A stretch of DNA of 64,000 nucleotides from contig NZ_AP024322.1 in assembly GCF_018408855.1 (NCBI RefSeq), positions 1,860,001 through 1,924,000 of the forward strand, written 5' to 3'. Each line of letters starts with the position of its first letter. The stretch's first letter is position 1. The position numbers and the translations under genes are program-made. Source of the stretch: Caballeronia sp. NK8 (GTDB lineage Bacteria > Pseudomonadota > Gammaproteobacteria > Burkholderiales > Burkholderiaceae). This document shows positions 6,566-11,643 of this stretch, in pieces. The notes below the pieces were generated by a model. The model was not told the DNA's origin and made no database searches. It worked only from the letters and a program-made list of their open reading frames with translations.

Positions 6566-6739
6566 GGGTTTGCGTCGATCCGCCGAAAGCGCGGATCATA
6601 GGCCGCGGTGCGTTCGCCGCGCAAGTCCGGCATTGCCGACACATCCGCTCGAATGCCGCGACGTCATGGCGAATGTTTTGCCGCGCGCGCGTGTCAAAAT
6701 CACAGGAAACATCGAACAATTCAGCACGCGGAGGCTACC

Positions 6740-7255
6740 ATGCTGCACCCATTCAACCGTCTGCGCGGAGCGCTCGCGGGCGCAGGCGTCGCGCTGCTCC
6801 TCACGGCCTGCGCGCAGCCGTGGCAGAACTATCAGACCGGCGCGGATGCATCGGCGATCACGACCCGCCTCGGCCCGCCGCGCGAAGTCTACGATCTGCC
6901 CAACGGCGGCAAGCGCCTGATGTGGCCGACGCAGCCGCTCGGCGAATTCACCACCGCCGCCGATATCGACGCGTCCGGCAGGATCGTCAGCGTCAGGCAG
7001 GTGCTCGACGAGAACGAGTTCTACAAGGCGCAGATCGGTACGTGGACGAGAAAGGACGTGCTCGTGAACTTCGGGCGTCCAGTCGAGACTTCGTACTTTC
7101 CGCTGATGAAGCGCGAAGTCTGGACCTATCGCTACATGGAAGCGAACATCTGGTACCTGATGTACAACTTCTACTTCGACGATCAGGGCATTCTGCGCAT
7201 GACGCAGAAGACACCCGACCCGCTGCACGATCCCGACCGGCGCAATCTGTTCTGA
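6740..7255 (+). CDS. small outer-membrane-type lipoprotein, SmpA/OmlA-like features
   Basis: A 171-residue lipoprotein. The signal peptide ends in the lipobox LLTAC, so Cys24 is the predicted lipidation site; the next residues AQPW carry no Asp+2 retention signal, suggesting the outer membrane. The mature part resembles BamE/SmpA-fold lipoproteins in layout: ITTRLGPPREVYDLPNGGKRLMW, then VNFGRPVETSYF and an aromatic WTYRYMEANIWYLMYNFYF. The two G-x-P turns suggest two repeats of that fold, which is inference. ATG at 6740 was chosen because GGAGG lies six bases upstream; the open frame extends further without a signal peptide. Its function is not recognised. Confidence 0.75.
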   Translation: MLHPFNRLRGALAGAGVALLLTACAQPWQNYQTGADASAITTRLGPPREVYDLPNGGKRLMWPTQPLGEFTTAADIDASGRIVSVRQVLDENEFYKAQIGTWTRKDVLVNFGRPVETSYFPLMKREVWTYRYMEANIWYLMYNFYFDDQGILRMTQKTPDPLHDPDRRNLF

Positions 7256-7275
7256 CGACATCCGCGCCGCACCAT

Positions 7276-7305
7276 GCAAAAAGCCCTCTCGCGAGGGCTT
7301 TTTGC
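7276..7305. terminator. bidirectional Rho-independent terminator
   Basis: A perfect 13-base inverted repeat, GCAAAAAGCCCTC (7276-7288) and GAGGGCTTTTTGC (7293-7305), with a TCGC loop. The A and T tracts within the stem let it act on both strands. It separates the convergent lipoprotein gene and leuA. Confidence 0.88.
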
Positions 7306-7331
7306 TTTTCAGCCGAAACCGCGTTCGAACA

Positions 7332-8876
7332 TCAAAGCTGCGGATTGAGCTTCTCGACCTTCGAATGCAGCTTGTTCAATGCGGCGATGTAAGCCTTCGC
7401 CGACGCCGCGACGATGTCCGGATCGGTGCCCACGCCGTTCACGATGCGCCCGCTCTTCGACAGACGCACCGTCACTTCGCCCTGCGCCTGCGTGCCGGTC
7501 GTGATCGCGTTCACCGAATACAGCACGAGTTCCGCGCCGCTCGACACCTTCGATTCGATCGCGTGCAGCGTCGCGTCGACGGGACCGTTGCCGCCCGCCT
7601 CGCCCGTGACTTCGTTGCCCTCCACCGCGAACACGACCTTCGCTTGCGGCTGCTCGCCGGTCTCCGAATGCTGCTTCATCGATACGAAGCGGAAGTGCTC
7701 CTTCGCCTGCGCCTCGGCGGATTCCTCGGAGACGATCTGCATGATGTCTTCGTCGAAGATTTCGGCCTTGCGGTCGGCGAGCTCCTTGAAGCGCGCGAAT
7801 GCGGCGTTCACGTCGGCTTCGGATTCGAGCGTCACGCCGAGTTCTTCCAGACGCTGCTTGAACGCGTTACGGCCGGACAATTTGCCGAGCACGATCTTGT
7901 TCGCGGCCCAGCCCACGTCTTCCGCGCGCATGATTTCGTAAGTGTCGCGCGCCTTCAGCACGCCGTCCTGATGGATGCCCGATGCGTGCGCGAAGGCATT
8001 CGCGCCGACCACCGCCTTGTTCGGCTGCACGACGAAGCCGGTGATCTGCGAGACGAGCTTCGACGTGGGAACGATCTGCGTCGTGTCGACGCCGACATCG
8101 AGCCCGAAGTAGTCCTTGCGCGTCTTGACGGCCATCACGATTTCTTCGAGCGACGTGTTGCCCGCGCGCTCGCCGAGACCGTTGATCGTGCATTCGACCT
8201 GACGCGCGCCGCCGATCTGCACGCCGGCGAGCGAGTTCGCGACCGCGAGGCCGAGGTCGTCGTGACAGTGAACCGACCAGATGGCCTTGTCGGAATTGGG
8301 CACGCGCTCGCGCAGCGTCTTGACGAGATTGCCGTAATGCTCCGGAATCCCGTAGCCGACCGTATCCGTGATGTTGATGGTGCGCGCGCCTTCTTCGATG
8401 ACACCTTCGAGCACGCGGCAGAGGAAATCGATATCCGAGCGGCTGCCGTCTTCCGGCGAGAACTCGACGTCATCGGTGAACTTGCGCGCGAAGCGCACCG
8501 CGAGGCGCGCCTGCTCGTAGACCTGCTCCGGCGTCATACGCAGCTTCTTTTCCATGTGCAGCGCCGACGTCGCGATGAACGTGTGGATGCGGAACTGGTT
8601 CGCCGGCTTCAACGCATCGGCGGCGCGCTGGATGTCCTTGTCGTTCGCACGCGCGAGCGAGCAGACCGTGCTGTCCTTCACGAGCGATGCGATCGTGTTG
8701 ATTGCGTCGAAGTCGCCGTTCGAGCTGGCGGCGAAGCCTGCCTCGATCACGTCGACCTTCATGCGCTCCAGTTGCTTCGCGATGCGGATCTTTTCTTCCT
8801 TCGTCATCGACGCGCCGGGGGACTGCTCGCCATCGCGCAAGGTCGTATCGAAGATGATCAACTTGTCTGCTGCCAT
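7332..8876 (-). CDS. leuA: 2-isopropylmalate synthase
   Basis: A 514-residue enzyme condensing acetyl-CoA with 2-oxoisovalerate in the first committed step of leucine synthesis. The N-terminal DRE-TIM barrel has the metal and substrate motif DTTLRDGEQ (residues 10-18) and the [12 protein letters not shown] signature. The C-terminal LeuA allosteric domain (from about residue 390) includes [13 protein letters not shown] and ends near residue 514, so leucine feedback should be intact. The ATG follows GGAG at a six-base gap. The gene stands alone, not with leuBCD, and a leucine-rich leader peptide with its own promoter lies 129 bases upstream, indicating transcript-level control as well. Confidence 0.98.
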
Positions 8877-8926
8877 GCTGGGCTCCTGTGGGGAGATTTA
8901 TCGATTGTTGGGTGGAAAACGATCAG

Positions 8927-8972
8927 GCAAAAGGGAATTCGGGTGTTCGCGCCACCGCTGGCGTCGAAAACC
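8927..8972 (-). promoter_or_regulatory. putative attenuator hairpin between leader peptide and leuA
   Basis: On the minus strand GGTTTTCGACGCCA (8959-8972) pairs with TGGCGCGAACACC (8942-8954) around a GCGG loop. The stem has about 13 pairs, one bulged A and one mismatch. It begins 33 bases after the leader-peptide stop and ends 65 bases before the leuA ATG, the expected place for an attenuator. The following sequence GAATTCCCTTTTGCC has only a short T run, so its strength as an intrinsic terminator is uncertain. Confidence 0.45.
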
Positions 8973-9004
8973 TGACTAGGCGAGCAGACGGGAGGCGAGA
9001 CGAA

Positions 9005-9091
9005 TCAGCGCGGTAGGCGCGCTAGCAGCGATAGTGCGCGTAGCGACGCACCTGCCGGGAACAGCGAGAAGGGGAACGGGAAAAAGTTCAT
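9005..9091 (-). CDS. leuL: leucine leader peptide of the leuA attenuator
   Basis: A 28-codon frame beginning ATG AAC TTT TTC and ending CTA CCG CGC TGA. The first half is Phe/Pro-rich (MNFFPFPFSLFP). The second half packs five Leu codons into ten positions (LRALSLLARL), and four of the six Leu codons in the peptide are CTA, a codon almost unused in neighbouring genes, where CTC and CTG dominate. Clustered rare codons for the pathway's end product are the hallmark of ribosome-mediated attenuation, as in enterobacterial leuL. No Shine-Dalgarno is seen. The predicted transcription start coincides with the ATG, suggesting a leaderless message. The gene name is given by role, not by homology. Confidence 0.7.
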   Translation of the reverse strand: MNFFPFPFSLFPAGASLRALSLLARLPR

Positions 9092-9097
9092 TCAAAA

Positions 9098-9126
9098 ACT
9101 ATAACGGCTTTTAGAGGCGCGTGCAA
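9098..9126 (-). promoter_or_regulatory. sigma-70 promoter of leuL-leuA
   Basis: On the minus strand TTGCAC (9121-9126), a 17-base spacer, then TATAGT (9098-9103): 4/6 and 5/6 matches to consensus with ideal spacing. A start seven bases past the -10 falls at 9091, the first base of the leader-peptide ATG. Confidence 0.72.
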
Positions 9127-9184
9127 TCAGGGCTTTGGTCGAACCAGTCGACGCCGGCATGTCCCGCGCGCGGCCCGGAAATGC

Positions 9185-9217
9185 AAAAAGCCTGCATCCC
9201 GAAGGAGGCAGGCTTTT
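9185..9217 (-). terminator. Rho-independent terminator of the NlpC/P60 gene
   Basis: AAAAGCCTGC (9186-9195) and GCAGGCTTTT (9208-9217) form a 10-base stem. On the minus strand it is followed by a T tract and lies 21 bases after the stop codon. It also insulates the leu promoter from upstream transcription. Confidence 0.82.
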
Positions 9218-9237
9218 CCTGATGCCAGTCAGACCGA

Positions 9238-9897
9238 TCAGTAACCGCCGATCGACGCGCTCACGCGCTGACGCAGTTCCGAGCCATCGCCGACCTGCGC
9301 GTTCTCGATGCGGCGCGCGCCCTGGAAGCGCTTTTCCCAGTAGCCGTCTTCCATGTCGTCGACACGGATCGTGCTGCCGGTGGACGGCGAATGCACGAAC
9401 TTGTTGTCTCCGATATAGATGCCGACATGCGAGAACGAACGGCGCATCGTGTTGAAGAACACCAGATCGCCCGGCTTGAGGTCGGAGGCGGTAACCTTCT
9501 CGCCCACACGGCTCATTTCCTCGGCGCGGCGCGGCAAGGTCATGCCGAGCGTGTCCTGAAACACGTAGCGCACGAAACCGCTGCAATCCAGACCGGAATC
9601 CGGCGTGTTGCCGCCCCAGCGGTAGCGCACGCCGATCATGTTCAGCGCGCCGACGACGACGTCGCCCGCCTTGCTGGCTACGCCCGACAGAAACGACTTC
9701 GCGCCGCCCGGAGTGCTGGCGGCGTCTGCGCTGGATCCATCAGTGGATTTGCTGGAGGAGAAAATGCCGTTGTTGGCATTTTGGCTGCTACTGTTGACTT
9801 CGTCGGCGAACGCGCCGGAAGTTGTTGTCATCAGAAGGCCGATCAACATGCTCGCGGCGGCGCGGGCGCATGTCTGAGTCAACGTTAGTGGCTGCAT
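9238..9897 (-). CDS. NlpC/P60 family cell-wall endopeptidase (C40)
   Basis: A 219-residue secreted cysteine peptidase. An N-terminal signal peptide (hydrophobic ASMLIGLLMT, cleavage near GAFA) is followed by a Ser/Asn-rich linker to about residue 75. The catalytic domain then shows RYRWGGN, the nucleophile in LDCSGFVRYVF, the histidine in SHVGIYIGD and the FVHSPSTG strand, a complete C40 triad. These enzymes cleave peptide stems of peptidoglycan. ATG at 9895-9897 gives a proper signal sequence, while the longer open frame does not. No strong ribosome-binding site is visible. A near-consensus promoter lies just upstream and a terminator just downstream, so this is a single-gene unit. Confidence 0.9.
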   Translation of the reverse strand: MQPLTLTQTCARAAASMLIGLLMTTTSGAFADEVNSSSQNANNGIFSSSKSTDGSSADAASTPGGAKSFLSGVASKAGDVVVGALNMIGVRYRWGGNTPDSGLDCSGFVRYVFQDTLGMTLPRRAEEMSRVGEKVTASDLKPGDLVFFNTMRRSFSHVGIYIGDNKFVHSPSTGSTIRVDDMEDGYWEKRFQGARRIENAQVGDGSELRQRVSASIGGY

Positions 9898-9959
9898 CGG
9901 TCGGTAGGTTTTACAATTAAAAGCTGCTAAATCAGGGAGATACGTGAAAGTTTGGAAGG

Positions 9960-9988
9960 ATACTAGCCACAAAGTATTTAACTGTCAA
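9960..9988 (-). promoter_or_regulatory. near-consensus sigma-70 promoter for the NlpC/P60 gene
   Basis: On the minus strand a perfect TTGACA (9983-9988), a 17-base spacer and TAGTAT (9960-9965). It sits in unusually AT-rich DNA (about 9895-10040). The predicted start near 9953 gives a 5' leader of about 55 bases. Confidence 0.75.
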
Positions 9989-10044
9989 AAGAAATAGAAA
10001 AATACAATTAAGATGGGCACCCAATTGGTGAAAAAGAAAGATTT

Positions 10045-11643
10045 TTAGGAATCCAGGGCTGCTTTCAGAAGCTTTCTTGTGTATTCGTCGGACGGGTTCG
10101 AAAAAATCTTCTCTACTTCTCCGGACTCGACGATAAGACCATTCCGCATCACCGCGACGCGATGCGCCATTGCCCCGATCACCTGCAGGTCGTGGCTAAT
10201 GAAAACGTAACCGAGATTGTGCTTCTGCTGAATGCTGGCCAGCAACGCAAGTACTTGAGTCTGAATGGAAACATCGAGCGCGCTGGTCGGTTCGTCGAGA
10301 ATCAGGATGCTGGGTTCCAGCACGAGCGCACGCGCGATCGCGATGCGTTGCCGTTGTCCGCCCGAGAACTCGTGCGGGTAGCGTTCGAGCGCCGAGCGCT
10401 CCATGCCGACCTCTCGCAGCACCGCGATCACCTTGGCGCGCCGCGCGGCCGCGTCGAGTTCCGGGCGATGCAGCGCAAGCCCTTCCCCGACGATCCGTTC
10501 GACGGTCTGCCGCGGCGACAGTGAGCTGAACGGGTCCTGAAACACCACTTGCAGATTCGAGCGCAGCACCGTTTTTTCGCGTCCGCGAAAATCGCCGAGC
10601 GCGCGGCCCTGAAACTGCACCGCGCCGTTTGAAATGCGCTGCAACCCGAGGAGCGCCATCGCGAGCGTCGATTTCCCCGAGCCCGACTCGCCGACGATGC
10701 CGAGCGTCTCGCCCTGGCGCACCGTCAGTGTCACATCGTCGACGGCCTTGAAGCGGCCGCTTCGAAACCAGCCTTTGAGCCCGGGCACGCGCGTCGGGTA
10801 ATCGACGGACACGTCCTTCGCGTCGAGCAGCACCGGCGCGATCGGCAGCACGGGCAGCACGGTGCGCTTCGGCTTGCTTGCCAGCAGGCGCTGCGTGTAC
10901 GGATGCTGCGGCGACGTGAAAATATCGTCGGTGGCGCCGGTTTCGACGAGCACGCCGTTCTCCATCACCGCGACGCGTTCGGCGAAGCGCCGCACGAGAT
11001 TCAGGTCGTGCGTGATGAGCAGCACGGCCATGCCGCGCTTTTCCGCCTCATCGCGCTGCAACTCCAGCAGCAGATCGACGATCTGCGCGCGGATCGTCAC
11101 GTCCAGCGCTGTCGTCGGCTCGTCGGCGAGCAGCAGGCGCGGCCGGCACGCGAGCGCCATCGCGATCATCACGCGCTGGCGCTGTCCGCCCGAAAGCTGA
11201 TGCGGATAGCTGTCGACACGCCTTTCCGGCTCGGTGATGCCGGTGCGCGCGAGCAGCGCGATCGCGCGCTGCCGCGCCTCGCGCGGGCTCGTGCCGTCGT
11301 GGAGCTGAATCGTCTCGCCGATCTGGTCGCCGACCGTGTAGAGCGGATTGAGCGCCGTCATCGGCTCCTGGAAGATCATCGCGATATCGGAACCGCGCAG
11401 GCCGCGCATCGCGTGCTCGCTCTTCGACAGCAACTCGTCGCCGGCGAAGCGGATCGAGCCGGTCACTTCGGCATCGCGCACGAGCCGCAGGATCGACAGC
11501 GCCGTCACGCTCTTGCCCGAGCCCGATTCGCCGACGAGCGCGACACGCTCGCCCGCGCGGATCTCCAGATTCACGCCGTCGACGGCGAGCGTGTCGCCGA
11601 AACGCACGCGCAGGTCTTCGATAGCAAGCAAAGGCGCGCTCAC
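10045..11643 (-). CDS. yejF: peptide ABC transporter ATP-binding protein YejF
   Basis: A 532-residue double ATPase for peptide import. The two nucleotide-binding domains each have a Walker A GESGSGKS, a Q-loop ([12 protein letters not shown] and [12 protein letters not shown]), a signature (QLSGGQRQR and EFSGGQRQR) and a Walker B with catalytic Glu ([12 protein letters not shown] and [11 protein letters not shown]). The oligopeptide-transport C-terminal motif HPYTQRLL is present after the first domain. The start is GTG at 11641-11643, overlapping the yejE stop as GTGA, which points to translational coupling. It powers YejBE. In enterobacteria YejABEF takes up peptides, including microcin C; the substrate here is not known. 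Confidence 0.95.

Follow-up and report, generated by a model that had tools for sequence, protein, structure and literature searches.

A putative leucine-responsive leader upstream of leuA in Burkholderiales, with a predicted leaderless start and a proposed Rho off-switch in Caballeronia and its close relatives

Among the known leader peptides that control leucine biosynthesis, the attenuator of the enterobacterial leu operon (Salmonella, and leuL of E. coli), which we take to be the element described by Rfam family RF00512, carries a Shine-Dalgarno (SD) sequence and an intrinsic terminator. CUA is a control codon of this leader. The Leu leader is about 28 codons long and lies upstream of leuA, as outlined in PMC6123439, and in Salmonella a CUA-to-CUG change lowers the sensitivity of the system (Carter et al. 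1986, as described in PMC1183508). In the epsilonproteobacterium Campylobacter jejuni, a LeuL leader of 28 amino acids with rare Leu codons precedes leuABCD; it was found by requiring a ribosome binding site and is therefore leadered, as presented in PMC3847290. Leader peptides can also be leaderless, and in S. lividans such peptides are described for leuA, leuS, trpE and other genes (PMC8079986). The actinobacterial LEU element (S. lividans LeuL1) encodes a peptide with a run of Leu upstream of leuA, is transcribed leaderless and has no typical intrinsic terminator, according to the accounts in PMC8079986 and PMC1262725. Within the Proteobacteria, the trpL attenuator RNA of Sinorhizobium meliloti (rnTrpL) begins with the ATG of the leader frame, as summarised in PMC7298713 and PMC10117765. 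The trpL system resembles the locus described below in this respect and differs in its amino acid (tryptophan), its length (14 codons) and its attenuation-derived small RNA, and we claim no sequence relation. Leaderless short open reading frames with poly-cysteine in mycobacteria are reportedly amino-acid-responsive attenuators too, in work by Canestrari et al. from 2020; both their amino acid and their host group differ from those of the present leader.

The leader described here lies upstream of leuA in Caballeronia sp. NK8, in a stretch of 64,000 nucleotides (contig NZ_AP024322.1, positions 1,860,001 to 1,924,000), which we call the window and to which all coordinates refer. It shares with the enterobacterial leader the position, the length of about 28 codons and the CTA control codons, but it has no good SD, starts at the predicted 5' end of the RNA and has, in this clade, no intrinsic terminator. 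When positions 7000-11000 of the window were searched, the Rfam Leu leader family was not among the five matches up to E = 10, and seven related loci gave no gathering match; the element corresponds to no Rfam family. No likeness to the LEU element was seen in the peptide tails, which were compared at the peptide level. The original prediction, made from the letters of the window, was a leucine attenuator whose unusual part is a leaderless leader peptide; unusual it is, although the actinobacteria and Sinorhizobium provide precedents. We regard the conserved leucine-sensing leader as real and its leaderless start as very probable, leaderless leader peptides as such being already known elsewhere. 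We propose that the locus controls leuA in response to leucine, by way of ribosomes on a leaderless leader peptide, a reading of the sequences that we think is probably correct; a Rho off-switch in this clade is the less certain part of it.

All parts of the locus are on the minus strand. The leuA gene (7332..8876) encodes a 2-isopropylmalate synthase of 514 aa (NF002087.0, 906.9 bits against a cut-off of 729) and is preceded by the SD sequence AGGAG (8883..8887). Upstream of it is the leader frame (9005..9091), which encodes MNFFPFPFSLFPAGASLRALSLLARLPR in 28 codons followed by a stop codon and has five Leu in residues 17-26, just as had been predicted. The leader peptide of Caballeronia megalochromosomata, the top named relative (L031), is identical. 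A -10 element TATAGT (9098..9103) lies 6 nt 5' of the leader ATG and is separated by a 17-nt spacer from the -35 element TTGCAC (9121..9126), so placed that the RNA is predicted to start on the A at 9091 or within 1 nt of it. The -35 hexamer agrees with the consensus at only three of six positions and a simple sigma-70 scan did not report the site; the case for this promoter is one of conservation, as seen in the sequences of relatives. A scan of the 9.2 Mb genome for TTGC-N18-20-TATAGT-N5-7-ATG gave two matches, and the reversed control pattern gave none. The only other match (L232, contig C2 near position 599474) has a 58-codon frame behind it. Further upstream, the NlpC/P60 gene ends in a terminator of a stem followed by a T run (9186..9217; -19.4 kcal/mol, z -4.8), which should insulate the leuA unit from that gene. 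At the other end, between leuA and a convergent gene (6608-7255), the hairpin AGCCCTC/GAGGGCT (7278-7320) with T runs on both strands is probably a bidirectional terminator.

The six Leu codons of the leader are CTG (9064-9062), CTA (9043-9041), CTA (9034-9032), CTG (9028-9026), CTA (9025-9023) and CTA (9016-9014), and the last five fall in the control region CTA CGC GCA CTA TCG CTG CTA GCG CGC CTA (9014..9043). That four of the six are the locally rare CTA held up on counting: CTA makes up 17 of the 1440 Leu codons in the 35 long ORFs of the window, and at this frequency the chance of at least four CTA in six is 2.9e-7. The same scoring of the frames in relatives, which had been suggested as a check, gave 432 CTA among 861 Leu codons (50%) in 131 leaders versus 15 of 3559 (0.4%) in leuA of 97 loci, an enrichment of about 100-fold. 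This codon bias is the strongest sign in the sequences that the frame senses leucine, and we hold it highly probable that a leucine-sensing leader stands in front of leuA. All 70 unique sequences of group A (Caballeronia, Paraburkholderia and Burkholderia, chosen by the core motif of the hairpin HPT described below) have a frame of 26-32 codons with 3-6 Leu within the last 13 codons. The two halves of the peptide differ in constraint. In a set of 32 leaders, each 28 codons long, sites in codons 14-28 differ on average by 0.102, 0.040 and 0.126 at codon positions 1, 2 and 3, and those in codons 2-13 by 0.229, 0.241 and 0.284. The notion that the Phe/Pro-rich first half, MNFFPFPF, paces or docks the ribosome is not borne out by this near-equal variation of the three positions, nor by other leaders, in which it is replaced by MTAFSRL, MIFFAHP and other residues; since the frame is kept but the residues hardly are, this half is best read as a spacer.

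We compared 230 leuA upstream regions, nearly all from Burkholderiales (a first 30, then 80 named, 26 new and 94 stretches); a few genomes are in both collections, and there are 221 distinct 180-nt leuA-proximal sequences. Because circularity with the -10 spacing was to be avoided, the leader frame was picked by Leu content alone (ATG start, 12-55 codons, at least four Leu in some ten residues). Such a frame was present in 160 loci (154 unique), and 145 unique leaders were left after tails of upstream genes had been dropped. A -10-like hexamer is found 5-8 nt before the ATG in 131/145, with 61 at 6 nt, 65 at 7 nt and 5 at 8 nt, and out to 59 nt no spacing besides 6 and 7 is shared by more than five leaders. 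The controls gave 17 of 618 other upstream ATGs and none of the 145 leuA starts, counts to be read with the loci being related by descent and thus not independent. In a tally over the same leaders, TTGCAC or TTGCGC lies exactly 17 nt 5' of the -10 in 88 entries. The spacing survives although the promoter letters differ, the Comamonadaceae having TGTGnTACATT-like -10s and the Burkholderiaceae TTGCRC-17-TATAGT or TATATT. Frame, Leu codons and spacing are conserved upstream of leuA in relatives, far beyond the controls, which supports the original prediction that the start falls on the leader ATG. The ATG also stands without an SD, as claimed: the longest anti-SD match before a leader ATG is 4 nt, in 10/145, while leuA starts have a match of at least 4 nt in 143/145. 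Ten of the 14 spacing exceptions show the right spacing with a TATAGC hexamer (L012) or with another ATG at gap 6-7 (L030, L059, L063, L102, L105, L108, L142, L183 and L216); the true exceptions are L186 and L200, whose -10 is about 13 nt before the ATG, L218 and L229. A Leu-rich leader is missing in 80 loci, and 37 of these also lack any frame at the -10 spacing. With the RNA 5' end placed by promoter position and conservation, a leaderless start of the leader peptide is, in our judgement, very likely.

In some loci the promoter and the ATG spacing are kept but the frame has few Leu codons (L192, L193, L195 and L230, Pandoraea-like by similarity, and L139 and L140, Paraburkholderia-like), possibly as decaying sensors. 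The comparison was extended to 29 loci from other families of this class. A frame with four or more Leu in ten residues stands at a gap of 6-7 nt in 12 of them, a count that leaves out L246 for its resemblance to an upstream-gene tail, and ten other Leu frames have the nearest -10-like hexamer at 4 or 9-29 nt. In five of these other-family loci (L234, L235, L240, L241 and L254) that hexamer lies 23-29 nt 5' of the ATG of the Leu-rich frame, so these leaders are possibly leadered, and more distant relatives seem to have both leadered and leaderless forms.

Three hairpins are kept in group A, with 96.7-99.4% of cells paired per helix. HP1 (9034..9051; -8.0 kcal/mol, z -1.7) lies inside the coding region, and its five aligned pairs are 98.3% standard in 60 group-A sequences. 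HPS (AGCGCG-CCTAC-CGCGCT, 9007..9023; -8.2 kcal/mol, z -2.1) extends over the final codons of the leader and one base into the stop codon, is paired in 98.6% of cells and shows one compensatory change (L136). HPT (GGTTTTCGACGCCAGCGGTGGCGCGAACACC, 8942..8972; -15.6 kcal/mol, z -3.6) is the hairpin that the original prediction had placed before leuA; its pairing is 97.0% in group A, a conservation that is partly by construction because group A was selected by the HPT motif. When the clade is picked by the leader tail instead, the HPT core motif is present in 70/78 loci; the other eight (L016, L138, L143, L151, L153, L157, L158 and L181) sit among 39 other terminator-less leaders. HPT has no U-tract directly behind it and is therefore not a standard intrinsic terminator, so the predicted hairpin is there but does not have that role in this clade. 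In 500 shuffles of group A, the covariation score was matched or exceeded 8 times, the share of paired cells 16 times, the number of two-sided changes 29 times and the number of pair types 399 times; strong covariation was not to be had because the variation is too low. The whole leader folds slightly better than shuffles (z -1.3). RNAalifold pairs the stretch after the stop codon with the 3' arm of HPT, and eight sequences are changed on both sides at one pair, probably through few events in one clade. Two alternative pairings were set aside: an 11-bp helix between the leader end and the 3' arm of HPT, paired in 95.9% of cells with no two-sided changes and not favoured in folding, and a pairing of the HP1 3' arm with the HPS 5' arm, whose single two-sided change is equalled by 198/500 shuffles.

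Intrinsic terminators were counted in 169 leaders. For this count, and never for the 145 of the spacing count, the low-Leu leaders of the Ralstonia, Cupriavidus and Pandoraea types were added back by the -10 rule; the taxon labels of part of the loci come from similarity to named loci. A compact hairpin with a U-tract lies between leader and leuA in 61/169, namely in Comamonadaceae and relatives, in Ralstonia/Cupriavidus and in one small-genome Burkholderiaceae genus (g28). A locus from a MAG named Polynucleobacter (L056) has a different leader without a terminator, and among the Comamonadaceae-like loci one leader lacks a terminator (L095) and several loci lack a leader. In group A a terminator was found in 0/69 leaders, and taking the leader tail as the mark of the clade gave 0/74. 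The terminator rule was adopted after the result of a looser rule (40/169) had been seen, which gave long-loop hits in group A (L018, L019, L036, L118, L121, L152 and L154) and missed 4-U tails. In the sister groups, the 5' arm of the terminator has its complement at the end of the leader, immediately behind the Leu codons. These helices, for which the final 14 codons and 6 nt more were scanned, are of 5-9 bp and start at codons -3 to -7 in 59/61, and their letters are clade-specific: CAGGTCGGG/CCCGGCCTG, ACGGGC/GCCCGT, TTGGGGC/GCCCCAG and CTGGGGT/ACCCCAG. Taken row by row, 31/61 of the pairings score above 95% of shuffles, and those of L097, L098 and L211 are what chance would give. By anatomy, the sister-group leaders read as classical attenuators with a leaderless peptide. 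They share with the leader of the window the position, the leaderless spacing and a Leu-bearing leader, but have intrinsic terminators and candidate antiterminator arms that the clade of the window lacks. As for the predicted leucine attenuator, the Leu-rich, CTA-biased leader before leuA stands; since the hairpin of the clade of the window is no intrinsic terminator, the classical layout is seen, anatomically, only in the sister groups.

The C-rich stretch after the leader stop (8973..9004) is a candidate Rho loading region. In the 40 nt after the stop, C exceeds G in 69/69 group-A leaders (C 0.37, G 0.23), in 38/39 other terminator-less leaders (C 0.39, G 0.20) and in 47/61 terminator-bearing leaders (C 0.32, G 0.22); the excess in group A is modest. 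Ribosomes stalled on upstream ORFs can alter Rho loading sites, as discussed in PMC12121999. Rho-dependent termination is the likeliest off-switch in the clade of the window, though still a guess that may well be wrong; we prefer it because there is no intrinsic terminator, the stretch after the stop is C-rich and folding shows no SD switch. In the proposed sequence of events, RNA polymerase would start on the A of the leader ATG or at most one nucleotide from it, and with the RNA starting there the ribosome would have to begin on a bare 5' AUG. It would read the variable first half and then the Leu cluster, mostly of rare CTA, where scarce Leu-tRNA would slow it; the bias of the codons is observed and the sensing follows by interpretation. 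In the sister groups, the segment complementary to the terminator 5' arm follows immediately on the Leu codons, the layout expected of a classical attenuator. In the clade of the window, when leucine is plentiful, the ribosome would probably reach the stop codon and leave, HPS would close, the C-rich tract would be exposed and Rho would terminate the transcript short of leuA; a ribosome stalled at the CTA codons would prevent this. A bolder version, speculative and rather doubtful to us, makes leaderless initiation itself part of the mechanism of this terminator-less attenuator: ribosomes would load only on the emerging 5' AUG, locking the start of translation to that of transcription, so that the element would read both Leu-tRNA charging at the CTA codons and the capacity of the cell to initiate on leaderless messages (70S/IF-dependent), and would act through Rho. 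The clade would then have exchanged an intrinsic terminator for Rho and kept the sensor.

The same leader might have a translational output in this clade, its occupancy altering the pairing around the leuA start as proposed for the actinobacterial LEU element. In the pseudoknot proposed for that element the base stem consists of Leu codons and the leuA SD, whereas the pairing examined here joins the region after the leader stop to leuA codons 1-4 (GUCUGC with GCAGAC): a helix of 7-9 bp forms in one register in 62/70 group-A sequences, with 9 bp in 15, and folding leaves little of the leuA SD unpaired (mean 0.17). Changes in leuA or in the element are uncompensated in the other 8/70, however, so that this pairing was rejected as the primary mechanism; in single rows, too, shuffles often do about as well (0.01 to 0.22 among the 62). 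SD accessibility stayed nearly level when the 70 leaders were folded with the ribosome absent (0.17 unpaired), stalled (0.15) or at the stop codon (0.16), and no switch was seen, although the HPT and long-pairing figures from this folding depend on fixed registers and are to be read loosely. We consider translational control unlikely. A low probability also attaches to classical intrinsic attenuation in this clade, with HPT or HPS as a weak terminator whose U-tract is displaced. In its favour are the stable HPT, the complementarity of its 3' arm to the leader end over 11 bp, the RNAalifold pairing with eight sequences changed on both sides at one pair and the long-loop hits of the looser rule in seven leaders; yet the rule that finds 61 terminators elsewhere finds none in the 69 group-A leaders, the 11-bp pairing has no two-sided change and, on average, equilibrium folding prefers neither of the long pairings.

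The remaining alternatives bear on the leader itself and not on its output. Transcription may start (also) upstream, so that the leader is actually leadered and the -10 beside its ATG incidental, a reading to which the poor -35 match and the silence of the promoter scan lend something; the spacing kept in most unique leaders but in few control ATGs, the want of a good SD and the strong terminator upstream at 9186-9217 make it quite improbable. The frame might also be left over from something else, or encode a small protein whose function has nothing to do with the control of leuA. This would suit the six few-Leu loci that keep promoter and start, but is hard to square with the enrichment of CTA, with a Leu cluster kept beside hairpins or with a first half free of amino-acid constraint, and we give it hardly any credence. 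Leucine-dependent control through the leader peptide remains our preferred reading, with Rho as the proposed effector in this clade.

If this reading is true, many Burkholderiales, including Burkholderia, Paraburkholderia, Caballeronia, Cupriavidus, Ralstonia and Comamonadaceae, would sense leucine synthesis by a peptide made from a message without a 5' UTR, and leaderless translation would be central to a conserved housekeeping circuit in Gram-negative bacteria. The group would also offer a natural comparison, the same sensor being joined to an intrinsic terminator in some clades and to another off-switch in others. No report of the element was found by title or abstract in the open-access literature searched, most subscription papers being outside this search; the proteobacterial survey of Vitreschak et al. 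from 2004 may touch on it. Start-site papers on B. cenocepacia (PMC4603805) and C. metallidurans (PMC7563307) discuss leaderless messages, and a term search of their main texts met neither leuA nor leader peptide. A small-RNA paper on B. cenocepacia reports short 5' UTRs (PMC5688073), and its main text does not contain the word leuA.

Two further arrangements were observed upstream of leuA. In four loci from Oxalobacteraceae and relatives (L053, L054, L057 and L058), the stop codon of the leader lies in the loop of a GC-rich hairpin, e.g. TGCGC-TAA-CGCGCA, with a C-rich, G-poor stretch behind it and no terminator by the rule used, another terminator-less design. Six loci from Comamonadaceae and relatives (L065, L074, L086, L087, L090 and L104), in which no leader was found in the 260 nt before the leuA start motif, have within that distance a reading like VLDYHEHAIG, which we take to resemble the C-terminal part of LeuA proteins and which suggests a second leuA-like gene directly upstream.
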